From Lactonifactor longoviformis DSM 17459 (GTDB lineage: Bacteria > Bacillota > Clostridia > Lachnospirales > Lachnospiraceae), in the NCBI RefSeq assembly GCF_900129135.1, contig NZ_FQVI01000011.1, positions 1-64,000 of the forward strand: DNA of 64,000 nt. Direction: 5' to 3'. Positions 13,664-26,887 of this stretch are shown in pieces. Below the pieces are notes generated by a model that saw nothing but the letters and a program-made list of their open reading frames with translations, was not told the origin of the DNA and made no database searches. Each line of letters starts with the position of its first letter. Position 1 is the first letter of the stretch. Made by a program: the position numbers and the translations under genes.

Positions 13664-13713
13664 TGCGAATAAACCTCCCTGTCCTGACTTGCATTGCGGA
13701 ATGCCCTTTGGGT

Positions 13714-13744
13714 ATAATAAAGGATACAGTAACTGTAAAGTCAA
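13714..13744 (-). promoter_or_regulatory. MerR-type promoter of the MATE gene
   Basis: On the minus strand, TTGACT (13744-13739) and TATTAT (13719-13714) are separated by 19 bp, the overlong spacer typical of MerR-activated promoters. The spacer contains the perfect dyad TACAGTTACTGTA, so the divergent regulator probably untwists this promoter when it binds drug. Confidence 0.75.
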
Positions 13745-13771
13745 GAAAGAATTTTACGGAGGAGGATGCCA

Positions 13772-14593
13772 ATGAACCCTCAAAAACAAGTGTTTACCGC
13801 CGGTGAATTCGCCCGGCTGACAGGCGTTAACAAGAGAACGCTGCACTATTACGATGATATCGGCCTGTTCTCTCCTGCCCAAAAGGGCAGCAACGGATAC
13901 CGGTACTATACTTATGAACAGAGCCTGACTCTGGAAATGCTTCTGGCCCTGCGGGAAGCAGGTATGTCAATCAATGAAATCAAGCATTATATGGACCGCC
14001 GATCCGCGGAACTTTTTCACGAAATGGTTCGTCAAAAGACCTCTGAAATTGATGCCTCTGTCAGAAGGCTGAAAGCCATAAAGGAGATTCTGGAAGAAAA
14101 AGATGAAATGCTGACCCTCTCTGAATCGGCAAAGCTGAATCAGATTACTATAAAAGACTGCCCGGAGGAATATCTGGCAGTAAGTCCGGCTGTCTCTGAT
14201 ACAGGGCAGGAGATAGCTGCACTCATCCGGCACATGAAGGAAGTAACGGCCTATACTCCCTACCGGAAAAGCTTCGGCAGTATGCTGTCGGCAGAGAAGA
14301 TTCAGACAGGCAATTACACGGATTATGACTATCTGTTTACAAGAATCAGCCGGCCCAAAACAAAAAAAGGCCTTTACAGAAAGCCCAAAGGCAGGTACCT
14401 TCAGGCTTACTGTAAAGGAAGCTGGGATTATATCCCTTCTGTATATCAAAAGCTTATGGCTTATGCGGATTCCCACGGGTTACTGCTGTGCGGATATTCG
14501 TATGAGATAGGATTAAACGAGATGGCAATCACCCGTATGGAAGAATATGTGACTCTCATATCTATTCTGTGTACAGAACGTACTGACGCCTGA
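13772..14593 (+). CDS. MerR-family transcriptional regulator with GyrI-like effector domain
   Basis: The 273-residue protein has an N-terminal MerR DNA-binding domain (FARLTGVNKRTLHYYDDIGL, about residues 11-30), a coiled-coil linker near 80-115 and a C-terminal GyrI-like ligand-binding domain (about 125-270), as in BmrR. It is divergent from the MATE gene, and the shared 108-bp gap carries a 19-bp-spacer promoter with a dyad. It probably senses a MATE substrate. ATG 13766 overlaps the GGAGGAGG tract, so ATG 13772, with better spacing, is preferred. It is an intact paralogue of the frameshifted gene at 40928-41744. Confidence 0.88.
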   Translation: MNPQKQVFTAGEFARLTGVNKRTLHYYDDIGLFSPAQKGSNGYRYYTYEQSLTLEMLLALREAGMSINEIKHYMDRRSAELFHEMVRQKTSEIDASVRRLKAIKEILEEKDEMLTLSESAKLNQITIKDCPEEYLAVSPAVSDTGQEIAALIRHMKEVTAYTPYRKSFGSMLSAEKIQTGNYTDYDYLFTRISRPKTKKGLYRKPKGRYLQAYCKGSWDYIPSVYQKLMAYADSHGLLLCGYSYEIGLNEMAITRMEEYVTLISILCTERTDA

Positions 14594-14596
14594 CCT

Positions 14597-16189
14597 TTAC
14601 ACCTGCAGTATCCTTGCCAGATCTTCTTTCGGGGTACTGATAGGCGCAATGTGATACTTCTCTTCCAGATAGTTCAGTACATTTTCAGAGACAAAGGCAG
14701 GCAGAGTTGGACCCAGATATATATTCTGTATTCCCAGATGAAGAAGGGTCAGAAGAATACATACTGCTTTTTGTTCGTACCAGGAGAGAACCATAGACAG
14801 AGGCAGCTCATTCACACTGCAGTCAAAGGCTTTTGCCAGTTCCACTGCCACCATTATAGCGCTGTAAGCATCGTTGCACTGTCCCATATCCAGGATTCTG
14901 GGCAGCCCGCATACCGTTCCCAGATCCATGTCGTTAAAACGATATTTTCCGCATGCCAGAGTGAGAATCAAGCTGTCCTCAGGTGCCTCCTGCACAAATT
15001 CCGTGTAATAATTTCTTCCTGCTTTCGCTCCGTCACAGCCTCCTACCAGGAAGAAATGACTGATTTTTCCGGATTTGACACCTTCAATCACAGTGTCGGC
15101 AGCTCCTAAGACAGCGTCTTTGCCGAATCCGGTGGTCACCTGTGTCCCTCCGTTTATGCCTGTAAATGTCATATCCTCCGGATATCCCCCCAGCTGCAGG
15201 GCTTTTTCTATTACAGGTGTGAAATCCTTTTCCCCGCCGATATGAGTCATCCCCGGATAGGAAACTACTTCGGTAGTAAACACTCTGTCCTTATAGCTGT
15301 CTCTCGGCGGCATAAGGCAGTTTGTGGTAAACAGTACCGGTGCAGGCAGATCGGCAAATTCCTTCTGCTGGTTCTGCCAGGCGGTACCGTAATTTCCTTT
15401 CAGGTGGGTATACGCCTTTAATTTTGGATACGCATGTGCCGGAAGCATTTCTCCATGCGTAAAAACATTGATTCCTTTTCCTTCTGTCTGTTCCAGAAGA
15501 AGCTGCAGGTCGCGCAGATCATGTCCGCTTACTACAATGAAAGGGCCTTTCGGGACAGAAAGTGAAACAGTTACGGGAGAAGGAATCCCGTAAGCAGTTG
15601 TATTTGCCCTGTGGAGAAGCTCCATACATTTCAGGTTAACCCCGCCCACCTCCAGGACCAGGGGGAGCAGCTTTTCCATAGGGAGTTCCGCTCCCACTGC
15701 AAACATTCCTTTGTAAAAAAACTGATTTACCTCTTCGTCCGAATATCCCAGCACCATAGCATGATAGGCATAGGCCGCCATTCCTCTTAATCCGAACAGC
15801 AGAAGGGATTTTAGCGAACGGATATCGGGTTCATCCTTCCAAAGCTTCTCCATATCGTATTCGTCATTTCTCCCGCAGGGCGTCCTGCACACAGAGCACT
15901 GTGATACCAGAGCCTCCTTCTCTCTTCTCACTTTTTCAATCTGTGCCTGAATGGAATCCTGATCAAAGTTTACATTTGTCAGTGTGATAAATAATCCCTC
16001 AATCATAGCGCGGTGGGTACTCTCCTGAGGCATAGTTCCCTCTGCAGCCCTGGCCAGTGCTATGAGAGCTCCTGTCAGTTCATCCTGCAGCCTGGCAACA
16101 TCTGCACTTTTTCCGCAGACTCCGGCTTTTCCTGTACATCCGGTGCATCCTGCTGTCTGTTCACATTGATAACAAAACATGTTTTCCAT
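14597..16189 (-). CDS. hcp: Hydroxylamine reductase / hybrid cluster protein
   Basis: Hcp carries a 4Fe-4S cluster and a hybrid Fe-S-O cluster, and reduces hydroxylamine or nitric oxide during nitrosative stress. The 530-residue protein begins with the cluster motif CYQCEQTAGCTGCTGKAGVC (residues 5-24). Later cluster ligands are seen in GVNLKCMELLH, in TNCLMPP (about 310-316), and in LACGKYRF and GLPRILDMGQCND. It lies 39 bp downstream of a ferredoxin gene in the same direction, its likely electron donor, and has AAGGAG before ATG 16189. Confidence 0.95.
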   Translation of the reverse strand: MENMFCYQCEQTAGCTGCTGKAGVCGKSADVARLQDELTGALIALARAAEGTMPQESTHRAMIEGLFITLTNVNFDQDSIQAQIEKVRREKEALVSQCSVCRTPCGRNDEYDMEKLWKDEPDIRSLKSLLLFGLRGMAAYAYHAMVLGYSDEEVNQFFYKGMFAVGAELPMEKLLPLVLEVGGVNLKCMELLHRANTTAYGIPSPVTVSLSVPKGPFIVVSGHDLRDLQLLLEQTEGKGINVFTHGEMLPAHAYPKLKAYTHLKGNYGTAWQNQQKEFADLPAPVLFTTNCLMPPRDSYKDRVFTTEVVSYPGMTHIGGEKDFTPVIEKALQLGGYPEDMTFTGINGGTQVTTGFGKDAVLGAADTVIEGVKSGKISHFFLVGGCDGAKAGRNYYTEFVQEAPEDSLILTLACGKYRFNDMDLGTVCGLPRILDMGQCNDAYSAIMVAVELAKAFDCSVNELPLSMVLSWYEQKAVCILLTLLHLGIQNIYLGPTLPAFVSENVLNYLEEKYHIAPISTPKEDLARILQV

Positions 16190-16228
16190 AATATTGATCT
16201 CCTTTTCTCTATCCCGTAACGGGTTATT

Positions 16229-16831
16229 TTACTCCAGAATATTTCCCTTAATTCCGATCGTTGCGGAGTGTACCTGCAAATTTTTCCCGCTGTTTTTCAC
16301 CGCGGTCTCCACTGCCTGCACCATTCCCCGGCAGCAGGGCACTTCCATGCGCACAACCGTAATATCCTTAATCTCATTTTCTATGAGAATTGCGGTCAGT
16401 TTCTCGCTGTAATCTGTACTGTCCAGTTTCGGACAACCGATTAGTGTTACCTTATCCTCCATAAATTCCCGGTGAAAATCTCCGAAGGCATAAGCCGTAC
16501 AGTCCGCGGCAATCAGCAGCCTTGCCTGCTGGTAATAAGGGGCAGTCAAAGGTGCCAGCTTAATCTGTACCGGCCACTGCCGCAGACGTCCATTTAATTT
16601 CTGAGGCTGGTGGCCCGGACATCCCTGGAAAGCGGCTGCCTCCCTCTCTTCAAAAGATATGGCGCCTGCAGGACAGACCGGAAGGCAGTCCCCCAGACCG
16701 TCGCAATAATCTTCCTTTATCAGCCTGGCCTTGTTATCCACCATTTCTATGGCACCTTCATGGCAGACTTTTGCACAAAGACCACAGCCGTTGCACTTTT
16801 CTTCATTAATTTTAATTATTTTTCTCAGCAT
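16229..16831 (-). CDS. Ferredoxin-type 4Fe-4S protein, probable Hcp partner
   Basis: The 200-residue protein starts with a ferredoxin domain: CNGCGLCAKVCHEGAIEM (about 14-31) and CDGLGDCLPVCPAG (about 43-56). In the second motif the usual CxxCxxC spacing is altered (Cys-Asp-Gly-Leu-Gly-Asp-Cys), and in the first the proline after the fourth cysteine is replaced by histidine. The remaining 120 or so residues have scattered cysteines (DCTAYAF, GCPKLD, PCCRGMVQ) and no recognised fold. It precedes hcp and is probably co-transcribed, making it a candidate electron donor. AGGGAGG lies before ATG 16831. Confidence 0.85.
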   Translation of the reverse strand: MLRKIIKINEEKCNGCGLCAKVCHEGAIEMVDNKARLIKEDYCDGLGDCLPVCPAGAISFEEREAAAFQGCPGHQPQKLNGRLRQWPVQIKLAPLTAPYYQQARLLIAADCTAYAFGDFHREFMEDKVTLIGCPKLDSTDYSEKLTAILIENEIKDITVVRMEVPCCRGMVQAVETAVKNSGKNLQVHSATIGIKGNILE

Positions 16832-16877
16832 AACTTCAGCCTCCCTGAGTCAAAATGAATTGTTACTTTTGGTTTCT

Positions 16878-16906
16878 TGACTATCTGAGGAAAGCATACT
16901 ATACTT
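16878..16906 (+). promoter_or_regulatory. Promoter of the Crp/Fnr-family regulator
   Basis: TTGACT at 16878-16883 and TATACT at 16901-16906 are 17 bp apart, reading toward the regulator at 16948. The predicted transcription start is near 16913. Confidence 0.65.
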
Positions 16907-16921
16907 GCAGTAGTAAATCGG

Positions 16922-16935
16922 TTGTTTTTACAACG
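16922..16935. promoter_or_regulatory. Candidate Crp/Fnr-type operator
   Basis: GTTGT-TTTT-ACAAC is a perfect inverted repeat between the divergent regulator and ferredoxin-hcp genes. It lies about 10-23 nt after the predicted start of the regulator transcript. It also overlaps the position expected for the -35 element of a minus-strand TATAGT (16904-16899). This would suit repression of the regulator and activation of hcp. Confidence 0.5.
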
Positions 16936-16947
16936 AAATGAGGAAGA

Positions 16948-17613
16948 ATGAAAAAACAAATAGAAATTTTAAAAGATACCCCTCTGTTTTTCGGGGTGCA
17001 GGAACATGAGATTGAGGAAATGCTTGGCTGCCTCTCCTCATCAGAAAAGAATTATCATAAAGGATCTTATATTTTTACCGCACAGGATTCTCCTGTCAAT
17101 GTGGGGATTGTACTGGAAGGCAGTGTTCATGTGATCAAGGAAGACTTTTGGGGAAACCGGGCCATTCTGGCCAGCATAGGAGCAGGGGGCATGTTCGGGG
17201 AGGCCTTTGCCTGTGCACAGGCAGACCATCTTCCGGTAAGCGTGGTAGCCAGGGAAGATACGAGTGTACTTTTCATTGACTATAAACGGATTATTACCAC
17301 CTGCTCCTCCGCATGCCATTTTCATACCCGTCTTATAGAGAACATGCTTCACATCCTTGCAGAAAAAAATCTCCTGCTCACGCAGAAAATGGAGCATATT
17401 GTCAAACGGACAACGAGAGAAAAGCTTTTGTCCTACCTCTCCTGGCAGGCAGCCCAGGCCGGTTCCTCTTACTTTATGATTCCGTTTAACAGACAGGAGC
17501 TGGCAGACTATCTGTCTGTAGACAGAAGCGCCCTTTCCAGTGAGCTGGGAAAGCTGCAAAAGGAAGGGGTTCTGGAGTATCACAAAAATCAGTTTAAGCT
17601 GATTCATGCCTGA
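16948..17613 (+). CDS. Crp/Fnr-family transcriptional regulator (HcpR-like)
   Basis: The 221-residue protein has an N-terminal cyclic-nucleotide-binding-type beta barrel (about 10-125) and a C-terminal winged helix with RQELADYLSVDRSALSSELG (about 182-201) as recognition region. No Fnr-type N-terminal cysteine cluster is visible, so an oxygen-labile cluster is not indicated. It is divergent from ferredoxin-hcp, the arrangement seen for HcpR regulators that control hcp in response to nitric oxide; that function here is inferred. The stop lies inside a hairpin (17602-17644) shared with the convergent lactate permease gene. Confidence 0.85.
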   Translation: MKKQIEILKDTPLFFGVQEHEIEEMLGCLSSSEKNYHKGSYIFTAQDSPVNVGIVLEGSVHVIKEDFWGNRAILASIGAGGMFGEAFACAQADHLPVSVVAREDTSVLFIDYKRIITTCSSACHFHTRLIENMLHILAEKNLLLTQKMEHIVKRTTREKLLSYLSWQAAQAGSSYFMIPFNRQELADYLSVDRSALSSELGKLQKEGVLEYHKNQFKLIHA

Positions 17614-17644
17614 GGCTGCCTTTCGGTCTCTCTCAGGCATGAAT
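17602..17644. terminator. Hairpin between convergent genes
   Basis: A perfect 13-bp stem (17602-17614 with 17632-17644) contains the stop codon of the Crp/Fnr gene and faces the end of the lactate permease gene at 17653. There is no T run on either side, so its action as a terminator is uncertain. Confidence 0.5.
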
Positions 17645-17652
17645 GTGCCCCA

Positions 17653-19131
17653 TTATGTGCCAAAAGCAGGGAATAAGAGGTATGCATACACCATGGACAA
17701 AACGCAGTAAACAACAGTCATAATAATAAATGCTTTAATCGTTCTTTTGAAAACTTCTCCTTCGGCATTCTTTAAGCCCAAAGTTGCATTTACAGCAATA
17801 ATATTATTCGGGCAAATCATATTGCCCAGGGAACCTCCCGCACTGCTGCTCGTTACCGCTACTATCTGGTTGATGCCAAGCGTGGCTGCCGCTTCCAGAT
17901 GAAGCATACAGAACAGTTTATTAGATCCCAGACAGGATCCTGTGATAAACGCTCCGATTGCACCGATAAGAACGGAGACTGCAGGATAAAACTTCCCGGC
18001 CAGGTCAGCCAGAAACTGGGCAATCTGGGAGATCATACCTGAACTGTTCATCAGGTTTGCCAAAGCGTAAAGGGAACACAGCGTGATAATTGGTTTGATC
18101 AATTTTAAAATTGCATTCTTCTCGCATAATAAAAATTTATCTGCGCATCCCATACAAAATGAGCTGATGAGAACTACAATATGAATAACAGCCCCAATCC
18201 AGGTGGCATATCCGTACTTTGTAAGTGCACTCAGCGGAAAGCTAAAGCGCACCGCAGGCAGTAAAATCAGGAGCAGCAGATAGGGTAAAAATGCTTTGAA
18301 ATTGGACTGATTTGTTTCAAACTCCGTGGAAGAATCATTTATGTATGCAGCATTTTCCTTCACGCCCACCAGCTTTAAATAGGCAACGGATACAATCACG
18401 CCCACTACCCCGGATATTAAATCCGATAGTTCCGCTCCGATAAAGTTAGATACTAAAAGCATAGCTATACTCATGCCTATACATACTGTCGCCAGATATC
18501 CCCACATGCCTTTTAAACTTTTAGCTCCATACAAGACAATCAGGAGAACAATTGGCACCACCAGACAGCCTGCCGCCAGAAACCTTCCTGTCATGGCAAC
18601 AATATCCTCCAGCGGTACGGTCCCTGTAATTGCGCTCATGCCGGCAATTGTAGGAACTCCTGCACCCCCAAAGCAGGGCGGTACTCCGTTGCAGATCAGA
18701 CAGGCGGCAGCAGCCACCAGCGGCTGAAAGCCCAACCCCAGCAGGAACGGGGCCAAAATTGCGGCCGGCGCACCGTTCCCGGTGGCCCCTTCAATAAATA
18801 CTCCCAGACAGAAGGCAATGAGTACAATCTGTACACGGCGGTCTCTGGTAAGAGAACTGACGGTTGTTTTTATACGATTCATGCCCGAGCTGACCTGCAT
18901 TAATTCTAACAGAGAAAATGCGCCCCATACCAGGAATGCCACCTGCAGGGCAGCTATCACACCGCTTCTGGATGTTTCAAGCATAGCGGCCGGTTTACCG
19001 GAAAAAGCCGTGACTGCCAGTAAAAATGTAATGGCTACGCCTATCAGAGCGACTATCCAGGCCGGTTTTTTCAGTATTACAATTCCAACTAATACGATTA
19101 AAATGGGAATTATTGCTAATAAAAGAGACAA
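17653..19131 (-). CDS. L-lactate permease-family (LctP) transporter
   Basis: The 492-residue membrane protein has twelve or more hydrophobic segments and the LctP family signature (FLVWGAFSLLELMQVSSGMN, about 67-86; FIEGATGNGAPAAILAPFLL, about 109-128). The family imports lactate, glycolate and related 2-hydroxyacids with protons. At 492 residues it is somewhat shorter than E. coli LctP (about 550). The start is TTG at 19131 with AAAGGGGGA upstream. It is the last gene of the operon with the 2-hydroxyacid dehydrogenase and the oxidoreductase. This suggests its substrate is the 2-hydroxyacid they consume, which may not be lactate. Confidence 0.88.
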   Translation of the reverse strand: MSLLLAIIPILIVLVGIVILKKPAWIVALIGVAITFLLAVTAFSGKPAAMLETSRSGVIAALQVAFLVWGAFSLLELMQVSSGMNRIKTTVSSLTRDRRVQIVLIAFCLGVFIEGATGNGAPAAILAPFLLGLGFQPLVAAAACLICNGVPPCFGGAGVPTIAGMSAITGTVPLEDIVAMTGRFLAAGCLVVPIVLLIVLYGAKSLKGMWGYLATVCIGMSIAMLLVSNFIGAELSDLISGVVGVIVSVAYLKLVGVKENAAYINDSSTEFETNQSNFKAFLPYLLLLILLPAVRFSFPLSALTKYGYATWIGAVIHIVVLISSFCMGCADKFLLCEKNAILKLIKPIITLCSLYALANLMNSSGMISQIAQFLADLAGKFYPAVSVLIGAIGAFITGSCLGSNKLFCMLHLEAAATLGINQIVAVTSSSAGGSLGNMICPNNIIAVNATLGLKNAEGEVFKRTIKAFIIMTVVYCVLSMVYAYLLFPAFGT

Positions 19132-19164
19132 TAAACTTCCCCCTTTCTGCAGAATGCCGTTTCA

Positions 19165-20085
19165 CTAATAATTTGCACTTGCTATCATACCGCTTATTTT
19201 TTCCGCAACCTGGTCCAGTTCTTGTCTCCTCTCAGGGGTAAGCTGTGGAATGATTAATTCCTTCACACCGCCTCTTCCCAGTTTTACTGGCAGGCCCATG
19301 GCGCATGTGGAATACCCCAGATGTTCACAGAGGGGCGTCGAACAGGGGATGATAAGATCCATGTCCTTCGCAATAGCTTCCACCATCATTGACATTGTTA
19401 CCCCGGAAGTATAGCCGGTAGTCGTGCCTGTCTCAAGATCGGTCCAGTGCCTGAACCAATCGCCGCATTCCCTCTCTATCTGGGACTGCTGTTCCTGGGT
19501 AAGCTTCAGGGGAACACCCCCGTATGTCATGGACTCATACAGACGAATGGCCCCGCCCCCATGTTCACCGATGCACAGTGCGCCGATATTAGCGTACTCT
19601 TTTCCTGTAATCATCTCCGTGGCCCATTTGAGGCGAATCGTATCATTGCCCGCCAGCCCCAGGAATTGTTTTTTATCCCAGCCCAGCAGCTTTTGGTAGA
19701 TGTAGACAAAGACGTCCACCGGATTTGCAGACACAATAACAACCGTTGTCGGTTTGCAATGTTTCTTTAATTGTTCACAGATTGGAGCTATAATTTCTAC
19801 ATTCATCTGCAGCTCCTGAGCCCGGTCTTTAATCTCCTTGGAGAACGGCTTGGCTGCAGCACTGAGAATAATGTCACAGTCAGAAAAATCTGAATAGTCC
19901 TTTGCCAAAGAAACCTTTGTCCGGCTCACCGGAAGAAACGCCTGGTTCATATCCATCACATTAGCTGCCGCAAAGTTCTCTTTCACGTCCATTAATTTTA
20001 TTTCTTCCACACAGTCCCGCAAACCCACACAAAAAGCGGTTGTCGCTCCCAGGCGCCCTGCGCCTCCTATTACACCGAATTTCAT
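19165..20085 (-). CDS. L-2-hydroxyacid dehydrogenase (lactate/malate dehydrogenase family)
   Basis: The 306-residue NAD-dependent enzyme keeps the family's core: GGAGRLGA (7-14), the NAD-binding Asp33, Asn121, Asp148 and Arg151 (substrate carboxylate) and catalytic His175 in GEHGGG. The substrate loop is unusual. Where lactate dehydrogenases have Gln and malate dehydrogenases Arg before the Lys-Pro, this protein has Ala78 (AAAKPFSKEIKDR, 76-88). The DRxxEL segment that follows recalls L-2-hydroxyisocaproate dehydrogenases. A bulkier 2-hydroxyacid than lactate is therefore a reasonable guess. It lies between the oxidoreductase beta subunit and the permease. Confidence 0.85.
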   Translation of the reverse strand: MKFGVIGGAGRLGATTAFCVGLRDCVEEIKLMDVKENFAAANVMDMNQAFLPVSRTKVSLAKDYSDFSDCDIILSAAAKPFSKEIKDRAQELQMNVEIIAPICEQLKKHCKPTTVVIVSANPVDVFVYIYQKLLGWDKKQFLGLAGNDTIRLKWATEMITGKEYANIGALCIGEHGGGAIRLYESMTYGGVPLKLTQEQQSQIERECGDWFRHWTDLETGTTTGYTSGVTMSMMVEAIAKDMDLIIPCSTPLCEHLGYSTCAMGLPVKLGRGGVKELIIPQLTPERRQELDQVAEKISGMIASANY

Positions 20086-20106
20086 ATTTCTGCTCCTTTC
20101 AAATGA

Positions 20107-21021
20107 TCATTCCATTCCCTGTTCCGCCAGCCTCATAAGTATATGGAATCTCTGATCCGCTATCTGCTGAATACTGTTGATATCTTCTTCTGTAAGATTC
20201 TTAAATTTTCCAATCCCCTGTATAAATTCCTTTACAGATATCGGTGTTTTGTTTCTCACATTCATGTGATACCCGTCCTCATCCATCTCCCATAGAGGAA
20301 ACATGTTGGACCTTACGGCATTTCTGGCTACCTCAATAGCTTTTTCCGGGGAATATGCCCATCCCGTAGGACAGGGAGAGAATACATGCAGGTAGGCAAA
20401 GCCTTTTTTACTGGCTGCCAGCCCCTTCTCTACTTTTTTCACAAAGTCTGCCATGTGGGACGGCGACGCCGTTGCGCAGTAGGTCAGTCCATGCATGGAC
20501 ATAATCAGAGGAAGATACTTCTGCTGCTGCTGTTTGCCGTTAATCACAGCTCCTATGGGGGTGGTGGATGTCCTGGAACCCTTCGTCGTGGTGGAACTTC
20601 TCTGATAACCTGTATTCATGTACCCCTCATTGTCATAACAGACATAGAGCATCTTTTCATTTCTCTCCGCAGCTGCCGAAAGACTTTGAAATCCACAGTC
20701 GGCCGTGGCTCCGTCCCCTGCGATTCCAATCATATTTACCTCTCCCCTTCCTTTCCGCTCATACATCTGACTCAGCCCGGTAAGGAAGGACGCCGTATTA
20801 TCCAGCAGGGGAATGTGTACAGGAATCTTAAGGCCGTTGGCGTAATTCCACCCCACCACACCGGCTCCGGCCATACATCCCGGGGGAATTCCCACAATTG
20901 TATTTTTACCTGCTATTTTCAGAACGGTTCTCAGTATTAACTCTCCGCCGCACCCCTGACAGGCAGACATGCCCGGAGTCACCTGATCTTCTGCTTCTTT
21001 TAAAATATCAATATAGCTCAT
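20107..21021 (-). CDS. 2-oxoacid:ferredoxin oxidoreductase, beta (TPP-binding) subunit
   Basis: The 304-residue protein binds thiamine pyrophosphate. CQGCGGELILR (about 22-32) gives two cluster-ligand cysteines, and the TPP/Mg motif runs from GIAGDGATADCGFQSLSAA (about 99-117) to NEGYMNTGYQRSS. With the alpha, gamma and delta subunits encoded just upstream it forms the four-subunit enzyme that decarboxylates a 2-oxoacid to acyl-CoA and reduces ferredoxin. Sequence alone does not decide between pyruvate and branched-chain (VOR-type) substrates; the neighbouring dehydrogenase and butyrate kinase favour a C4 or longer acid. AGGAGG precedes ATG 21021. Confidence 0.9.
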   Translation of the reverse strand: MSYIDILKEAEDQVTPGMSACQGCGGELILRTVLKIAGKNTIVGIPPGCMAGAGVVGWNYANGLKIPVHIPLLDNTASFLTGLSQMYERKGRGEVNMIGIAGDGATADCGFQSLSAAAERNEKMLYVCYDNEGYMNTGYQRSSTTTKGSRTSTTPIGAVINGKQQQQKYLPLIMSMHGLTYCATASPSHMADFVKKVEKGLAASKKGFAYLHVFSPCPTGWAYSPEKAIEVARNAVRSNMFPLWEMDEDGYHMNVRNKTPISVKEFIQGIGKFKNLTEEDINSIQQIADQRFHILMRLAEQGME

Positions 21022-21036
21022 TTATCTTCCTCCTGT

Positions 21037-22215
21037 CTAGTCTACCATATACCACTGGGTTTCTCTTTCCCCCGGTTCATTTTTATGGGCGTCCAGATTC
21101 CTGATTGTCTCCATCATCATTTCAATGGAAATGTCTGCGCCGCCCAGACCGCCGATTGCAGAAAAATGACAGTATCTGCTGTCAGCGTCCGCCAGCGCTG
21201 CCTTGACTTCCATATGCATGGGGCCCTGGCTCCATCCAAAACTCACACTTCTGTCGATCACCGCAAATGCTTTTTTATCCTTTAAAGCATCTCTTATTTT
21301 CTCTGCCGGGAATGGCCTTGTGAAGCGCAGTTTAAGCAGACCTGCCTTAATTCCCTCTTCTCTGGCCTGATCCACCGCATCCATTCCCGTTCCGGTCATT
21401 CCTCCGATGGTTACTATGACAACATCCGCATCCTCTGTCCGGTACTGAGAGACAGCTCCCCCGTAATAGCGTCCAAAGGTATCCCCAAATTTCTTATCCA
21501 CCTCATCGATTACTTCCAGGGCTTTCTCCATTGCATCCAGATGAGATTTTCTGTATTTCATCAGGATGGGGCCCGGTGTAAGAGGATCCAGGGCAAAGGG
21601 GTGATCCGGATCCAGCACTGCATGGTGAAAAGAAGGCGGCGGCAGGAATCTGTCCACCTCTTCCTGCAGGGGGAGATCCACACCCTCGGTGAGATGAGAG
21701 CTGTAAAATCCATCGTAGCAGACATTTACGGGAAGTAATACCTCCGGGTGCTCGGCCAGCATATAGCTCTGGATGATCATATCCACGATCTCCTGGTTAC
21801 TGTCACAGAACATCTGAATCCATCCGGCTTCACGGACACTCATAGCATCCTGCTGTCCGCTCCACACAGTCTCCGGCGAGGTCATTTCTCTGGTAGCCAG
21901 AGCCATAACCATAGGAAAACGCAGGGTAGACATACGAAAGTAGGGTTCATACATCAGCGCCAGGCCCTGGGCGGACGTTGCTGTGAACACTCTGCCGCCT
22001 CCGGCAGCCGCCCCCTGAACTACACTCATAGCGGAATGTTCCGATTCTACCTGCACCAGGTTGGCATCTATGACTCCGTCGTGAACCAGTCCGGCCAGAT
22101 ATTCCACGACAGAAGACTGGGGGGTTATAGGGTAGGCGGCAATCAAATCCGGATGACACAATGCTGCTGCTTCTGCCGCAGAGTAATTACCTGTAAGAAC
22201 TTTTATCTTGCCCAT
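21037..22215 (-). CDS. 2-oxoacid:ferredoxin oxidoreductase, alpha subunit
   Basis: The 392-residue protein contains the pyrimidine-binding domain I and domain II of the family: AAYPITPQSSVVEYLAGL (about 28-45), ESEHSAMSVVQGAAAGG (about 58-74) and GGMTGTGMDAVDQA (about 270-283). ATG 22215 is chosen because GGAAGGAGG precedes it and it overlaps the delta-subunit stop by one base (TAATG); a longer frame to 22263 lies inside the delta gene. Gene order gamma-delta-alpha-beta is the classical order for archaeal and clostridial pyruvate or 2-oxoisovalerate oxidoreductases. Confidence 0.9.
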   Translation of the reverse strand: MGKIKVLTGNYSAAEAAALCHPDLIAAYPITPQSSVVEYLAGLVHDGVIDANLVQVESEHSAMSVVQGAAAGGGRVFTATSAQGLALMYEPYFRMSTLRFPMVMALATREMTSPETVWSGQQDAMSVREAGWIQMFCDSNQEIVDMIIQSYMLAEHPEVLLPVNVCYDGFYSSHLTEGVDLPLQEEVDRFLPPPSFHHAVLDPDHPFALDPLTPGPILMKYRKSHLDAMEKALEVIDEVDKKFGDTFGRYYGGAVSQYRTEDADVVIVTIGGMTGTGMDAVDQAREEGIKAGLLKLRFTRPFPAEKIRDALKDKKAFAVIDRSVSFGWSQGPMHMEVKAALADADSRYCHFSAIGGLGGADISIEMMMETIRNLDAHKNEPGERETQWYMVD

Positions 22216-22481
22216 TATCTTGAACCTCCTTCCAGTACCATAGCAATCGCACCTTTTTTGCACTCATTGGCGCAGATCCCGCATCCTTTGCAGTAATCAT
22301 AAGTGATTTCAAACTTTTTTCCGACAGCGGCAACGGCATTGACCGGGCAGAAGGCCAGGCACATGCCGCAGTCGATACATTTTTCTTTGTCCATCACCGG
22401 ACGGTATACTCTCCAGCTGGCTGTATCGAGAATGTACATTCCTTCATCCCCGATGGGTGTTATATGTAAACGCTTCTCCAT
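22215..22481 (-). CDS. 2-oxoacid:ferredoxin oxidoreductase, delta (ferredoxin) subunit
   Basis: This 88-residue protein carries two 4Fe-4S motifs, CIDCGMCLAFCPVNA (about 36-50) and CKGCGICANECKKGA (about 64-78). It is the electron-exit subunit passing electrons from the TPP centre to free ferredoxin. In the second motif the usual proline after the last cysteine is absent. AGGAGG lies before ATG 22481, the gene follows gamma by 10 bp and overlaps alpha by one base. Confidence 0.92.
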   Translation of the reverse strand: MEKRLHITPIGDEGMYILDTASWRVYRPVMDKEKCIDCGMCLAFCPVNAVAAVGKKFEITYDYCKGCGICANECKKGAIAMVLEGGSR

Positions 22482-22491
22482 AAACTTCCTC

Positions 22492-23031
22492 CTACTCTTT
22501 TAAGCCGGCTGCCTGCCCGTAAGCCTTTTGGGCAGCCTCTCTGTTTGCAGCTCCAAAGGATGCCTCTACTTCCTGAAACAGCACATCTTTGTCCACCAGT
22601 CCCGAAATTTGGGCGAATGCCCCCAGCATTGCTGTGTTGGGTATATTGCGCCCCAGAAGCTCTTCTGAGATCCCGGTTGCATCAACTACAGCAACTTTCC
22701 CTGCACAGGAAGGAACTTTCAATTCCTCCGGGGTTTTGACAGAATTAATAATAACAGTTCCGCCCTCCTTCAGCCCTGCATATGTACTTGGGAGGGACAC
22801 CAGCGAGTCATCCAGTATCATCAGGATATCCGGTTCATACACCTGCATCTTTCTGCGGATGGGTTCATCGGAGATTCTCAAATAGCCAAATACTGGGGAG
22901 CCTTTTCGTTCCACCCCGAAAAACGGAATAAACTGGCCGTACTTTTTTCCGGCTACGGCAGCCTTTACCACTATCTGGGAAGCTTTTACAACTCCCTGGC
23001 CGCCACGGCCGTGCAAACGGATTTCTTTCAT
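22492..23031 (-). CDS. 2-oxoacid:ferredoxin oxidoreductase, gamma subunit
   Basis: The 179-residue protein is the CoA-binding gamma subunit. It begins with IRLHGRGGQGVVKASQIV (about 4-21) and contains FFGVERKGSPVFGYLRIS (about 37-54), both typical. ATG 23031 is preferred over ATG 23037 because the AAAGGAG site lies 8 nt before the former and only 2 nt before the latter. It is the first gene of the operon, transcribed from the promoter at 23131-23159 under the shared operator. Confidence 0.9.
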   Translation of the reverse strand: MKEIRLHGRGGQGVVKASQIVVKAAVAGKKYGQFIPFFGVERKGSPVFGYLRISDEPIRRKMQVYEPDILMILDDSLVSLPSTYAGLKEGGTVIINSVKTPEELKVPSCAGKVAVVDATGISEELLGRNIPNTAMLGAFAQISGLVDKDVLFQEVEASFGAANREAAQKAYGQAAGLKE

Positions 23032-23091
23032 ACGCATTTCTCTCCTTTATGGTTTATTTAATGAGTAACCTTTTGCATTTTGTTCACTGTA

Positions 23092-23125
23092 TCAAAACGT
23101 TGTTTTGTATATCAAACACTTTGTA
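23092..23125. promoter_or_regulatory. Candidate IclR operator A
   Basis: Thirty-four bp containing the perfect dyad CAAAAC-GTT-GTTTTG (23093-23107) and ending in AAACACTTTGTA. It is identical at 28 of 34 positions to site B before butyrate kinase. It covers the predicted transcription start of the minus-strand operon, consistent with repression. Confidence 0.7.
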
Positions 23126-23130
23126 TCTTT

Positions 23131-23159
23131 ATAATATATTTAGTTTCTAATTCTGTCAA
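23131..23159 (-). promoter_or_regulatory. Promoter of the oxidoreductase-permease operon
   Basis: On the minus strand TTGACA (23159-23154) and TATTAT (23136-23131) are 17 bp apart. The predicted transcription start is near 23124, at the edge of the operator at 23092-23125. Confidence 0.7.
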
Positions 23160-23216
23160 CTACTCTTTTGCTGCAAAAGTGTAACATTTTTCATACTCAT
23201 TTTTGTCTATAATATA

Positions 23217-23251
23217 TAAAACATCCGTTTACTACATGAAACAATCGTTGA
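23217..23251. promoter_or_regulatory. Candidate IclR operator C (regulator promoter)
   Basis: This sequence keeps the order AAAAC-NNNC-GTTTA followed by TACATGAAACA found in sites A and B, with one extra base in the centre and more divergence. It starts just after a TATAAT at 23208-23213 and precedes the TTG start of the regulator at 23308, suggesting autoregulation. Confidence 0.45.
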
Positions 23252-23307
23252 CGGACAAACTATTTCTTGTTACACTGAAACCATATTATCCAAAGGAGGA
23301 ATGCCAC

Positions 23308-24075
23308 TTGAAAGAAACCGGCAATAACGAAAAATATATTCTCCATTCTGTGGAAACTGCTCTTTCAGTTATGGATCTTTTTTTTACTTACGAAGAACTG
23401 AGCCCCAGTGATGTAACCCGCTATCTGGGGATTAACCGCAGCACAGCTTTCCGATTTCTGGTGACGCTGGAGCAAAGCGGCTATATTGTTAAGACAGAGA
23501 ATTCCAAATACCGTCTCAGCGTCAAAGTGTCAACGCTTGGCCAGATTGCCCACAACCGCATGGAACTTATCGGTCTCATACATCCCCATCTCTGCCGCAT
23601 CTCAGAGGCAACCGGAGAGTCATCCCATCTGGTCATCATGGATAATCCCACTCATGTTACCTTTGTAGACAAAAGCATCGGGTCCCTGTGGCTGAAAATG
23701 GATATTCTTCTGGGGTACACACAGTACGCACACCTCACTGCAACCGGAAAGTCCATACTGGCCTACGAGTCGGATCAGTTTATCAACCAATACATCCGCT
23801 CCGCAGTCTTTGAACAGCAAACACCATACTCCATTAAAGATGCCAAAGAACTGCTGAATATCCTGGACAAAGTAAAAGCAGATGGATATTCCAGTGATAA
23901 CGAGGAAACAGAGATCGGGCTGTCCTGTTATGCCGTACCAATCCTCTCGTTTTCCGGAAGGCCCGTGGCCGCAATCAGCTCCTCCGGACCGACCACAAGG
24001 ATGCTGGCCAATAAAGAGAAACATCTGGAAGCACTGCACAACGCAGCAGAGCAGATCCAAAAAGGGTTGCAGTAA
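23308..24075 (+). CDS. IclR-family transcriptional regulator
   Basis: The 255-residue protein has an N-terminal winged helix (ELSPSDVTRYLGINRSTAFR, about 31-50) and a C-terminal IclR ligand-binding domain (about 75-250, including GESSHLVIMDN, ATGKSILAY and GLSCYAVPIL). A longer frame opens at 23203, but TTG 23308 has AAAGGAGG 8 nt upstream and yields the usual IclR length. It sits between the divergent oxidoreductase and butyrate kinase operons, both of which carry the same 34-bp sequence. It probably responds to a 2-hydroxy- or 2-oxoacid and controls both. Confidence 0.9.
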   Translation: MKETGNNEKYILHSVETALSVMDLFFTYEELSPSDVTRYLGINRSTAFRFLVTLEQSGYIVKTENSKYRLSVKVSTLGQIAHNRMELIGLIHPHLCRISEATGESSHLVIMDNPTHVTFVDKSIGSLWLKMDILLGYTQYAHLTATGKSILAYESDQFINQYIRSAVFEQQTPYSIKDAKELLNILDKVKADGYSSDNEETEIGLSCYAVPILSFSGRPVAAISSSGPTTRMLANKEKHLEALHNAAEQIQKGLQ

Positions 24076-24100
24076 AAAAGGGCAAAAAAAGATTTTCATA

Positions 24101-24129
24101 TTGACTCCCATACCCCTATATGATATATT
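24101..24129 (+). promoter_or_regulatory. Promoter of the butyrate kinase operon
   Basis: TTGACT (24101-24106) and TATATT (24124-24129) are 17 bp apart. Transcription would start near 24136, about 15 nt before operator B. Confidence 0.65.
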
Positions 24130-24150
24130 TTGATTAAACAAGTTCACATA

Positions 24151-24184
24151 TTAAAACGCCGTTTATTATATTAAACACTTTGTA
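24151..24184. promoter_or_regulatory. Candidate IclR operator B
   Basis: Thirty-four bp matching operator A at 28 positions, including AAAACG, GTTT, TATAT and the 12-base end AAACACTTTGTA. It lies between the predicted transcription start and the butyrate kinase gene, a roadblock position. Confidence 0.7.
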
Positions 24185-24213
24185 AATTGCATTAATATTA
24201 TAAGGAGGCGTTT

Positions 24214-25296
24214 ATGAATTATCGACTGCTAATTATTAATATGGGCTCTACCTCCACAAAGGTAGGTGTTTATTCTGACGACACTGCGCTCTGGGTCCAG
24301 TCGATTACTCATCCCAGGGAAGAGATTGCAGGATATCTGCATTTTATGGATCAGTATGAGTATCGTATGGAGGCAATTCTCGCTCTTCTGAAGGAAAAAG
24401 GTGAGCGGCTGGAAGCTTTTCACGCTATTGTAAGCCGCGGGGGTACCATACAGCCGGTACGGGGAGGGACATATAAGATCACGGGCAAAATGCTTGCGGA
24501 CTCCCAGTGCGGCAGATATGGGGATCATCCATGCAATATCGGAGGGCAGATCGCCTATGATCTCGGACAAAAATACAATATCCCGGCCTTTACCGTAGAT
24601 CCCCCGGTATGTAATGAAATGTGTGAGGAAGCCGTTTATTCCGGCCTTCCGGAGATTGAAAGAATTGCTTCATTTCAGGCTTTGAACCACCGTGCCACCG
24701 CAAGAAAATACTGCCGGGATCATGGAGTGGATTACGCAGAGACCCATCTCATAGTGGCTCATATGGGCGGCGGAATTACCGTTGCCGCCCATGAAAAGGG
24801 CAAAATCATTGATGTGAATAACGGACTTGCAGGGGATGGTCCTTTTGCTCTGGAGAGAAGCGGAGACCTCCCGGTAGGAGAATTAATTAAGCTTTGTTAC
24901 AGCGGCCGGTACACCCAGGATGAGATGCTCCGCAGGGTAAATGGACGCGGGGGCATGGCGGCATATCTGGGCACAGTAGACGGACAGGAGGTGCAGCGCA
25001 GAATTGATTCCGGTGACAAAAGGGCTGAGTCTGTCACCAGGGCCATGGCTTATCAGGTTTCCAAGGAAATCGGAGGAATTGCCGCAGTGATGAAAGGTAG
25101 GATAGACGCCATCGTTTTGACTGCCGGTCTGGGATATTGGGACTATTTCGTTAATCTAATCAAAGAGAGGGTCTCCTTTATCGCTCCCGTGGCTGTCTAT
25201 CCTGGGGAAAATGAAATGGAATCCCTGGCGCTGGGCGCTCTCCGTGTCCTGCACCGGGAGGAACCTATACAGAATTACGATGAGCAGTCTGCCTGA
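24214..25296 (+). CDS. buk: Butyrate kinase (branched-chain acyl kinase family)
   Basis: The 360-residue enzyme is an acetokinase-superfamily protein that makes ATP from an acyl-phosphate. It shows the N-terminal phosphate loop LIINMGSTSTKVGVY (about 5-19), VSRGGTIQPVRGGTY (about 71-85), AHMGGGITVAAHEKGKIIDV (about 184-203) and GDGPFALERSGDLP (about 208-221). Members accept butyryl-, isobutyryl-, valeryl- or propionyl-phosphate to different extents. AAGGAGG precedes ATG 24214. It is followed 15 bp later by phosphotransbutyrylase and controlled by the shared IclR-linked sequence. Confidence 0.93.
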   Translation: MNYRLLIINMGSTSTKVGVYSDDTALWVQSITHPREEIAGYLHFMDQYEYRMEAILALLKEKGERLEAFHAIVSRGGTIQPVRGGTYKITGKMLADSQCGRYGDHPCNIGGQIAYDLGQKYNIPAFTVDPPVCNEMCEEAVYSGLPEIERIASFQALNHRATARKYCRDHGVDYAETHLIVAHMGGGITVAAHEKGKIIDVNNGLAGDGPFALERSGDLPVGELIKLCYSGRYTQDEMLRRVNGRGGMAAYLGTVDGQEVQRRIDSGDKRAESVTRAMAYQVSKEIGGIAAVMKGRIDAIVLTAGLGYWDYFVNLIKERVSFIAPVAVYPGENEMESLALGALRVLHREEPIQNYDEQSA

Positions 25297-25311
25297 GAAA
25301 GGAGGGTTTCC

Positions 25312-26208
25312 ATGTATCACAACTTTGAAGAAATCATGAAAGAGATACGCAAGAATACTGATAAGAAAAACATAGCCGTAGCCGCTGCCCATGACTCTGA
25401 GGTTTTAGAATGTGCTGCTCTGGCGCGAAATGAGGGAATTGCCGCTTTTACACTAATTGGAATAGAGGATAAGATAAGAGAGATTCTCTTGTCCCTTGGA
25501 GAAAAACCGGATATGTGGGATATCATCCACCAACCAGATGACAAAAAATCTGCCATGCTGGCTGTGGAACTGGCCGCTGAGGGAAAAGCGGACGCTATTA
25601 TGAAAGGTCTCCTCCACACTTCTGACTTTCTGCGTGCCCTGTTCCACAAAGAATACTGCCTGGTCCCCCAAAAAGCGCTTGTCAGTCAGATAACCGTCAG
25701 TGAATTTCCCCAGGAAAACCGGTTTATCCTTCTGACTGACTGTGCGATCAATGTATGCCCTTCTTATGAGGATAAGGTTCAGATTATCAGAAATGCCGTA
25801 TCTCTGGCGCATAAGCTGGGAATCCATTGTCCCAAGGTTGCCTGTATCGCCCCTGTGGAGGTGATTAATGAAAAAATGCCGGAGACCATTGACGCGGCTA
25901 TGCTCAGCAAAGCCAATGAGCGGAGCCAAATCAGAGACTGCCGGGTGGACGGCCCTCTTGCGCTGGACAATGCCGTGTCCGCGGAAGCTGCAGCAGCAAA
26001 AGGCATTTCCAATCCCGTGGCAGGAAGCGCCGATATCCTCCTTCTCCCCAATCTGTGTACGGGAAATGCACTGGATAAAGCACTGCGGTATTTCGCCAAT
26101 CTGAAGACCGGAAGCGCGGTCATCGGCGCAGGTGTTCCAATTATAATGACGTCCCGGTCAGATTCCGCCCAAAATAAGCTCCATGCTGTGGCGCTCAGTG
26201 TTTTATAA
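25312..26208 (+). CDS. ptb: Phosphate butyryltransferase
   Basis: The 298-residue enzyme exchanges CoA of an acyl-CoA for phosphate, giving the substrate of butyrate kinase. Family features include AAAHDSEVLECAALA (about 24-38), GKADAIMKGLLHTSDFLRAL (about 88-107), LTDCAINVCP (about 142-151), DGPLALDNAVS and PNLCTGNALDKAL. It forms a two-gene operon with butyrate kinase (15-bp gap, AAAGGAGGG before ATG) and ends 8 bp before a strong terminator. The acyl group handled is probably the product of the divergent oxidoreductase. Confidence 0.93.
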   Translation: MYHNFEEIMKEIRKNTDKKNIAVAAAHDSEVLECAALARNEGIAAFTLIGIEDKIREILLSLGEKPDMWDIIHQPDDKKSAMLAVELAAEGKADAIMKGLLHTSDFLRALFHKEYCLVPQKALVSQITVSEFPQENRFILLTDCAINVCPSYEDKVQIIRNAVSLAHKLGIHCPKVACIAPVEVINEKMPETIDAAMLSKANERSQIRDCRVDGPLALDNAVSAEAAAAKGISNPVAGSADILLLPNLCTGNALDKALRYFANLKTGSAVIGAGVPIIMTSRSDSAQNKLHAVALSVL

Positions 26209-26215
26209 CCTTAAA

Positions 26216-26268
26216 AACGGAGCAGAAAAGCCCATGTAAAACCTATGGCTTTTCTACTCCGTTCTTTT
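26216..26268. terminator. Bidirectional terminator between ptb and nth
   Basis: A stem of about 17 bp (26216-26232 with 26247-26263, one mismatch) is followed by TTCTTTT on the plus strand and T-rich sequence on the minus strand. Its right arm overlaps the last codons of nth. Confidence 0.85.
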
Positions 26269-26887
26269 CACATATATCTGCAAGACAGCACCTTTCACAG
26301 CGGGGCTTTGTCCTGGCTGTACAGACATCTCTGCCGTGATATACCAGCCTGTGACAGAAATCACTTCCCTCCTTCGGAGGAATAAGCTTCCACAGTGCCA
26401 TCTCTACTTTTTTTGGATCCTTTATCCCATCCACAAGTCCCATGCGGTTTACCAAGCGGATACAGTGCGTGTCAGTGACAATGGCGGGTTCCCCGAAGAC
26501 ATCCCCCATGATCAGATTGGCACTCTTTCTTCCCACACCGGGGAGCTTCAGAAGACTGTCAAAATCTCTGGGAACCTTTCCCCCATATTCATTCTTTAAT
26601 ATTTTCATACAGGCACTGATATCTCTCGCCTTGCTCTTCCCCAGACCGCAGGGTTTTACTATGCGCTCTATATCCTCCGGTTCCGCAGCAGCCAGAGCAT
26701 CCACATCCGGATACTTTGCATAGAGGTCCTCTACCACCACATTTACTCTGGCATCTGTACACTGAGCAGCCAGGCGAACACTCACAAGCAGTTTCCAGGC
26801 ATCATCATAGTCCAGCGTACATCCGGCCTCCGGATATTCCGTTTTCAGTCTCTCAACAATCTCAAGAGCCAAGTTTTCCTTTGTCAT
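26243..26887 (-). CDS. nth: Endonuclease III
   Basis: Nth is the base-excision-repair glycosylase/AP lyase for oxidised pyrimidines. The 214-residue protein has the helix-hairpin-helix LLKLPGVGRKSANLIMGDVF (about 110-129) containing the catalytic lysine, the catalytic aspartate in VTDTHC (about 136-141), and the C-terminal 4Fe-4S loop with cysteines spaced C-x6-C-x2-C-x5-C (about 190-206). It is monocistronic with GAGAGG before ATG 26887. Its final codons form one arm of the shared terminator. Confidence 0.96.
   Translation of the reverse strand: MTKENLALEIVERLKTEYPEAGCTLDYDDAWKLLVSVRLAAQCTDARVNVVVEDLYAKYPDVDALAAAEPEDIERIVKPCGLGKSKARDISACMKILKNEYGGKVPRDFDSLLKLPGVGRKSANLIMGDVFGEPAIVTDTHCIRLVNRMGLVDGIKDPKKVEMALWKLIPPKEGSDFCHRLVYHGRDVCTARTKPRCERCCLADICEKNGVEKP

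Follow-up and report, generated by a model that had tools for sequence, protein, structure and literature searches.

The luo operon of Desulfovibrio vulgaris unites a permease, a dehydrogenase, an oxidoreductase, a phosphotransacylase and a kinase for lactate in one transcription unit (PMC4481167). For 4-hydroxyphenylpyruvate derived from tyrosine, a trio of four-subunit oxidoreductase, Ptb and Buk has been described, and similar clusters are reportedly widespread among anaerobic Firmicutes; the Ptb/Buk homologs HpdJ and HpdK of Clostridium scatologenes act on 4-hydroxyphenylacetyl-CoA and 4-hydroxyphenylacetate (PMC13285125). Gut acetogens, namely Intestinibacter bartlettii and Blautia hydrogenotrophica, have loci with expanded oxidoreductases (ten in B. 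hydrogenotrophica) and Ptb/Buk homologs (PMC13290082). Here, we analyzed a set of nine genes at positions 17653-26208 of a 64,000-nucleotide stretch (the window) of contig NZ_FQVI01000011.1 of Lactonifactor longoviformis DSM 17459. The set is predicted to be a repressor-controlled catabolic module for an L-2-hydroxyacid, a reading that we consider likely for its pathway logic and joint control (probability of roughly 70%).

The likeness to luo lies in its lactate permease, lactate dehydrogenases, pyruvate:ferredoxin oxidoreductase, Pta and Ack (PMC4481167). However, the luo dehydrogenases are glycolate-oxidase-like and iron-sulfur proteins and do not have the lactate dehydrogenase (LDH) fold, there is one por gene in place of four, Pta/Ack are found instead of Ptb/Buk, the substrate is lactate, and the regulators are response regulators, with no IclR in the passages covered (PMC4481167). 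In the window, the sequence shows the corresponding permease, dehydrogenase, oxidoreductase, phosphotransacylase and kinase families, as well as a shared operator pattern. The hpd cluster (HpdDEFG-HpdJ-HpdK) also combines a four-subunit oxidoreductase with Ptb/Buk homologs and yielded the acid on reconstitution, but it starts from tyrosine by transamination ("2-hydroxy" and "phenyllactate" are absent from the main text of the paper), and HpdE belongs to the VOR cluster (cluster 3), whereas the window PorA scores best with PadG, in cluster 6 (PMC13285125). The I. bartlettii and B. hydrogenotrophica loci differ in their aminotransferase entry, with no 2-hydroxyacid entry in the parts of the paper covered (PMC13290082). 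A limited literature search (titles and abstract starts) turned up no set that joins an LDH-fold entry enzyme to a PadG-like oxidoreductase, an LctP permease and an IclR protein. According to the initial annotation of this DNA, the gene set is not known as one unit; within the scope of that search this holds for the exact set, but close parallels are in print (PMC4481167, PMC13290082, PMC13285125). The set is a variant of the lactate-to-acetate and amino-acid-to-acid routes already known.

Gene content and predicted pathway

The region contains nine intact open reading frames (ORFs) in two divergent runs (Table 1). Together with the family matches, they bear out the gene content given in the initial annotation, and every gene named there is present at the positions listed. 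The minus-strand run has the order porG, porD, porA, porB, ldhX and LctP-family permease, with intergenic gaps of 10, -7, 15, 21 and 33 bases, while iclR, followed by buk and ptb (15 bases apart), makes up the plus-strand run. The iclR gene probably starts at TTG 23308, which has AGGAGG upstream, and not at the ORF opening at 23203; porA probably starts at ATG 22221 and not at the mechanically called GTG 22263.

In the proposed pathway, the permease would import an L-2-hydroxyacid, which LdhX would convert to the 2-oxoacid and NADH. PorGDAB would then yield acyl-CoA, CO2 and reduced ferredoxin, Ptb would turn the acyl-CoA into an acyl-phosphate, and Buk would use the latter and ADP to form ATP and an acid one carbon shorter. 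The gene families support this chemical logic, as the initial annotation had proposed it.

Recurrence of the gene set and rarity of ldhX

The same gene set was sought in other genomes, a check named in the initial annotation, and was found twice. In Dorea sp. D27 (L033), the arrangement is conserved for eight of the nine genes, with identities of 71-86%. Genome G115 has all nine in one co-directional run, in the order iclR-ldhX-permease-porGDAB-buk-ptb; eight of them were measured at 51-71% identity to the window genes (permease 68%), and porD was identified by eye among the listed ORFs. The same content in a different order in G115 argues for a functional unit rather than an inherited neighborhood. 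Acetoanaerobium noterae has an iclR-porGDAB-buk core lacking ldhX and the permease, and a por-buk core was found in genome G945 on a 6.2 kb contig.

With limits chosen to exclude ordinary members of the LDH/malate dehydrogenase (MDH) superfamily, ldhX was rare. At E <= 1e-30, three of the 397 genomes searched in the family had it: the own genome, G115 and G421, the last of which carries the D27 set and is counted as D27 or its double and not as a further species. In the order, it was present in 6 of 392 (own, G115 again and four of genus g417). The ldhX profile at E <= 1e-50 matched only the own genome among 398 of the phylum. When no such limit was applied, 45 of 98 genomes (own included) matched, the best besides LdhX itself being 28% identical (6.9e-29). 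A contig scan with LdhX as the single query, which reaches close relatives only, returned one locus, and in the genus of G115 ldhX was seen in G115 but not in the second species (1/2 genomes). Plasmid records were rejected as a source of orthologs: 79 matched, all below 60% identity (25-31% among the 20 matches listed).

Two of the g417 loci (L043 and L046) have an ldhX homolog of 42-46% identity with a threonine-aldolase-like neighbor (Pfam Beta_elim_lyase in L043; by eye in L046). Molybdenum-hydroxylase-like genes (L043) and selenium-donor-like genes were also noted there by eye. A Glu in the L043/L046 loop suggests that another substrate may be used.

Probable joint control of the two runs

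The initial annotation asserted that the two runs are co-regulated, and this now has support from two copies of one predicted operator pattern. Two copies of AAAC-N3-GTTT-N8-AAAC lie in the window (0.00 expected), and the 4.84 Mb genome has three exact copies, against none for the reversed control pattern. The third genomic copy precedes a gene resembling an ABC transporter (by eye). Both window copies lie downstream of the -10 elements of putative promoters (Table 1), a placement that fits a repressor. D27 has the exact pattern at the same place in its buk promoter, a one-mismatch form at the porG promoter and an N9 form closer to iclR; in A. noterae, an N9 form lies directly downstream of the porG promoter.

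Judging from position and co-occurrence, the IclR-family regulator would be the operator-binding protein, and it presumably acts as a repressor. It would bind directly downstream of both promoters and keep them shut in the absence of an inducer, for which the hydroxyacid or oxoacid is the probable candidate. Riboswitch control was dropped as an explanation, with no Rfam match at gathering thresholds in 16900-26400.

Table 1 Features of the 2-hydroxyacid gene set, with positions in the window
Feature	Position	Strand	Evidence
LctP-family permease, probable 2-hydroxyacid:cation symporter	17653..19131	-	PF02652 315.6 bits
ldhX, LDH/MDH-superfamily, probably NAD-dependent L-2-hydroxyacid dehydrogenase (predicted)	19165..20085	-	Ldh_1_N/Ldh_1_C (PF00056/PF02866) 87.9/30.7 bits
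porB, thiamine diphosphate (TPP)-binding beta subunit, 2-oxoacid:ferredoxin oxidoreductase	20107..21021	-	PF02775 (TPP_enzyme_C)
porA, alpha subunit	21037..22221	-	PF01855 (POR_N), PF17147 (PFOR_II)
porD, 2x[4Fe-4S] delta subunit	22215..22481	-	Fer4; TIGR02179 93.9 bits, cut-off 60
porG, gamma subunit	22492..23037	-	POR; TIGR02175 184 bits, cut-off 81
Predicted operator AAAC-N3-GTTT-N8-AAAC, copy 1	23095..23117	.	13 bases downstream of porG -10 element
Putative porG-operon promoter TTGACA-N17-TATTAT	23131..23159	-	11/12 consensus positions, best of the region; consensus match only
IclR-family regulator	23308..24075	+	PF01614 (IclR_C), PF09339 (HTH_IclR)
Putative buk-ptb promoter TTGACT-N17-TATATT	24101..24129	+	10/12 consensus positions; consensus match only
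Predicted operator, copy 2	24154..24176	.	24 bases downstream of buk -10 element
buk, butyrate-kinase-family acyl kinase	24214..25296	+	Acetate_kinase; TIGR02707 456 bits, cut-off 289.1
ptb, Ptb-type phosphate acyltransferase	25312..26208	+	PF01515 (PTA_PTB)

The set adjoins a stretch (14597-17613) with hybrid-cluster-protein-like and ferredoxin-like genes (by eye) and a Crp/Fnr-family regulator (family match), which is probably a separate stress unit.

The dehydrogenase LdhX

LdhX belongs to the LDH/MDH superfamily by its fold and its catalytic Arg, Asp-x-x-Arg and His. It shares the NAD-binding domain and the catalytic Arg/Asp/His set with these enzymes but is 19-30% identical to the solved members among the matches listed and has an altered substrate loop. 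Its AlphaFold2 model (predicted local distance difference test score, pLDDT, 93.2) matched MDH/LDH structures with Z scores of 38-40 over ~300 residues at 19-27% identity (50 entries among the matches listed). R88, R151 and H175 were invariant in 35/35 aligned sequences and D148 was conserved in at least 90%; we take these to correspond to catalytic R109, R171, H195 and D168 of LDH. The alignment comprised 7 ldhX-type sequences and 28 other family members; it included the ldhX of G546 as L045 and left out the duplicate locus L041, as well as L018 and L020. Hydroxyisocaproate dehydrogenase was not named among the 50 structure/PDB matches listed, which is not evidence against kinship.

LdhX scored below every NCBIfam LDH/MDH cut-off: 153.8 bits for L-lactate dehydrogenase TIGR01771 (cut-off 303.55) and, for malate dehydrogenase, 115.6 with TIGR01763 (351.85) and 172.1 with PRK06223 (283). 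Its specificity loop, KPFSKEIKDR (KPFSKDIKDR in D27), is longer than and changed from those of other family members, e.g., ANQKPGETR in LDH-like rows or ARKPGQTR. It lacks the usual Gln at the specificity position, where Gln marks lactate dehydrogenase and Arg malate dehydrogenase. The residue found where malate enzymes have Arg is Phe or Ser (F81 or S82; mean pLDDT 72 for residues 81-90). The residues at this position argue that LdhX is neither a malate enzyme nor a typical lactate enzyme. Malate was ruled out as a substrate on the same position and the missed MDH cut-offs.

The preference of the initial annotation for substrates other than lactate holds in part. The cut-offs and the loop disfavor lactate, but the only other Ldh_1 match found in the genome has Arg at the specificity position and adjoins a malic-enzyme-like gene, so that lactate may still be the substrate of LdhX. 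We lean slightly toward a substrate other than lactate. The other part of that argument, that Ptb/Buk point to a C4-C6 aliphatic substrate, is not safe, as the homologs HpdJ and HpdK act on aromatic compounds (PMC13285125), and aromatic 2-hydroxyacids are for this reason equally possible. We infer that LdhX works in the oxidizing direction and is stereospecific, and that the substrate is a non-malate L-2-hydroxyacid, aliphatic or aromatic.

Oxidoreductase, kinase, acyltransferase and permease families

The gamma, delta, alpha and beta subunits encoded together make PorGDAB a four-subunit 2-oxoacid:ferredoxin oxidoreductase. No curated sub-type cut-off (pyruvate, isovalerate, phenylglyoxylate or oxalate) was passed by PorA or PorB. 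The best NCBIfam match of PorA was PadG (phenylglyoxylate dehydrogenase; 464 bits, cut-off 700), followed by PorA_Arch (425, cut-off 550); PRK08366 gave 301 (cut-off 646) and oxalate 274 (cut-off 500). That of PorB was PadI (373.5 bits, cut-off 700). PadG was placed in cluster 6 of a published network, with PFOR and VOR members (PMC13285125), where PorA would presumably fall as well. The substrate is unsafe to read from sequence, because two of six active B. hydrogenotrophica oxidoreductases deviated from sequence-based expectation (PMC13290082).

Buk passes TIGR02707, which indicates the family and not the substrate, and matched probable butyrate kinase 2 (1saz) with 358 bits. Ptb reached 329 bits with phosphate butyryltransferase TIGR02706 (cut-off 410.5), and the permease 307.7 bits with LctP TIGR00795 (cut-off 341.15); both fell below these cut-offs and matched the Pfam families PF01515 and PF02652, respectively.

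Relatives of PorGDAB (53-55% for PorA) were also seen in L070 and L071, adjoining dihydropyrimidinase-like and class-V-aminotransferase-like genes, with microcompartment-shell-like genes in L071 and an ADP-forming-CoA-ligase-like gene in L070 (all by eye).

Parallel oxidoreductase loci in the same genome

A search of the genome for the alpha subunit gave 18 matches at E <= 0.001 in 14 loci, all of which were read; more distant oxidoreductases may be missed. These loci are the window, one NifJ-type locus (L094) and 12 with VorB and VorA (in L081-L093). All 13 non-NifJ loci encode an exit enzyme using acyl-CoA: an ADP-forming CoA ligase in seven, a CoA-transferase in three, and Ptb/Buk or PduL/Buk in three. 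An ELFV amino-acid dehydrogenase is found in 6/13, and a 2-hydroxyacid-dehydrogenase-type gene in another 6/13 (LDH-type in one, ketopantoate-reductase-type in three, D-2-hydroxyacid-type in two). No locus has both and one (L086) has neither. Were six and six placed randomly on 13 loci, the probability of no overlap would be 0.004; the test was picked once the table was known. Because an enzyme with an overflow role could occur together with an amino-acid dehydrogenase, the pattern supports an entry (oxidizing) role of LdhX.

As a control, 20 random 14-kb regions outside the loci, drawn from 12 of 75 contigs (known length) and falling on 7, held one entry-type gene (the other Ldh_1 gene), no exit gene and no region with both. 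Entry and exit genes occurred together in 12/13 loci, which vary from 10 to 20 kb, versus 0/20 control regions (p = 4e-8).

These loci suggest, tentatively and at clearly less than even odds, that the genome carries an oxidoreductase toolkit with an interchangeable entry step, catalyzed either by amino-acid dehydrogenases or by 2-hydroxyacid dehydrogenases of the LDH, ketopantoate-reductase and D-2-hydroxyacid types. The window locus would be the sole one of LDH type, hence L-specific, and the organism an acetogen living on excreted 2-hydroxyacids. The L- or D-specificity of the three dehydrogenase families is assumed, and the ketopantoate-reductase-type genes are presumed to act here as 2-hydroxyacid dehydrogenases. 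Several points count against this reading of the loci. The genes of ketopantoate-reductase type score above the curated threshold for 2-dehydropantoate 2-reductase. No cut-off is reached by the D-2-hydroxyacid-type gene of L085, and the one in L092 was assigned by its similarity to the L085 gene (32% identity over 262 aa) and not by a family scan. In L089, the entry and exit genes are on the opposite strand from VorBA. Some of the entry/exit reference proteins were taken from the test loci themselves, a bias in favor of those loci.

In one locus (L082), a butyrate kinase is fused to a metallo-beta-lactamase-fold domain in a 582-aa protein (12766-14514, minus strand). Its gene adjoins those for a PduL-type phosphotransacylase and a sodium:solute symporter, as well as VorBAG and a ketopantoate-reductase-type gene. 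The locus is possibly a differently built 2-hydroxyacid-to-ATP route.

Alternative readings

Some observations speak against a catabolic module for an L-2-hydroxyacid. The operator pattern was defined on the two window sites and then counted, so that its recurrence in D27 and A. noterae is what constitutes independent evidence, and G115 has a degenerate version only (by eye), missed by the regular-expression scan. The D27 set lacks the permease. The LdhX loop of the window and D27 differs from that of G115 and g417, (L/I/M)PERxVxxR, and the substrate may therefore differ within the gene set. In the stretches read, the g417 ldhX loci had no adjoining por, buk or ptb (2/4 contigs are below 8 kb); the dehydrogenase family is therefore wider than the pathway, and LdhX alone does not imply the pathway.

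Three other readings were weighed. LDH-fold enzymes are reversible and many favor reduction, and LdhX could thus be reducing: an amino-acid-derived 2-oxoacid would be split, part being oxidized via PorGDAB/Ptb/Buk for ATP and part reduced to a 2-hydroxyacid that would leave through the LctP permease and so dispose of electrons. The A. noterae core, devoid of dehydrogenase and permease, fits this, as it shows that a 2-oxoacid from another source can feed the core. However, neither an aminotransferase nor an amino-acid dehydrogenase is encoded in the set, electrons could go to acetyl-CoA synthase instead, and the mutual exclusion of the two dehydrogenase types across the parallel loci is as expected of entry enzymes, which makes a reducing LdhX rather improbable. 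As a second possibility, the set could be a lactate-to-acetate operon corresponding to Desulfovibrio luo, in which Ptb/Buk would act on acetyl groups; this would be a special case of the proposed module, so their odds overlap. The LctP family, the LDH fold and the same logic in luo (PMC4481167) speak for it, as does LdhX being the only candidate L-LDH of its family in the genome. We nevertheless regard it as unlikely given the L-LDH score of LdhX at about half the cut-off, its longer loop lacking the usual Gln, PorA/PorB below every curated pyruvate cut-off, the NifJ-type enzyme elsewhere (L094), and Buk in place of AckA.

The third reading would be a mandelate or cyanohydrin route: a nitrilase would supply an aromatic 2-hydroxyacid, LdhX would oxidize it to phenylglyoxylate, PorGDAB would form benzoyl-CoA, and Ptb/Buk would release benzoate with ATP. 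PadG and PadI are the best curated matches of PorA and PorB, and in D27 a nitrilase-family gene (L033:11008-12036, plus strand; best PDB match cyanide dihydratase, 378 bits) lies 44 bases after ldhX; its product may convert a cyanohydrin to a 2-hydroxyacid, or the gene may have nothing to do with the set. Both matches are, however, far below the cut-off, PorA_Arch is nearly as good, and no close nitrilase is encoded in the genome of the window, where the best match is 32% identical over 205 aa, so that this route appears very improbable.

Possible electron disposal and biological meaning

If LdhX and PorGDAB oxidize a 2-hydroxyacid as proposed, the electrons may be disposed of through acetogenesis. 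The genome has two neighboring acetyl-CoA-synthase-family genes (PF03598, 228 and 227 bits), and the Wood-Ljungdahl pathway could therefore take up electrons and CO2, as was reported for gut acetogens oxidizing amino acids (PMC13290082).

The branched and aromatic acids of anaerobes are usually traced to amino acids. If true, a jointly regulated pathway that gains ATP by converting free 2-hydroxyacids to such acids would add a second origin, and the 2-hydroxyacids that other fermenters excrete would serve as food and not as an end product. Because the loci are repeated with swapped entry and exit enzymes, their substrates are testable locus by locus by simple kinase and dehydrogenase assays. 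Should the toolkit reading be true, 2-hydroxyacids from lactic acid bacteria and reductive Stickland fermenters would be turned by L. longoviformis into branched or aromatic acids and acetate.

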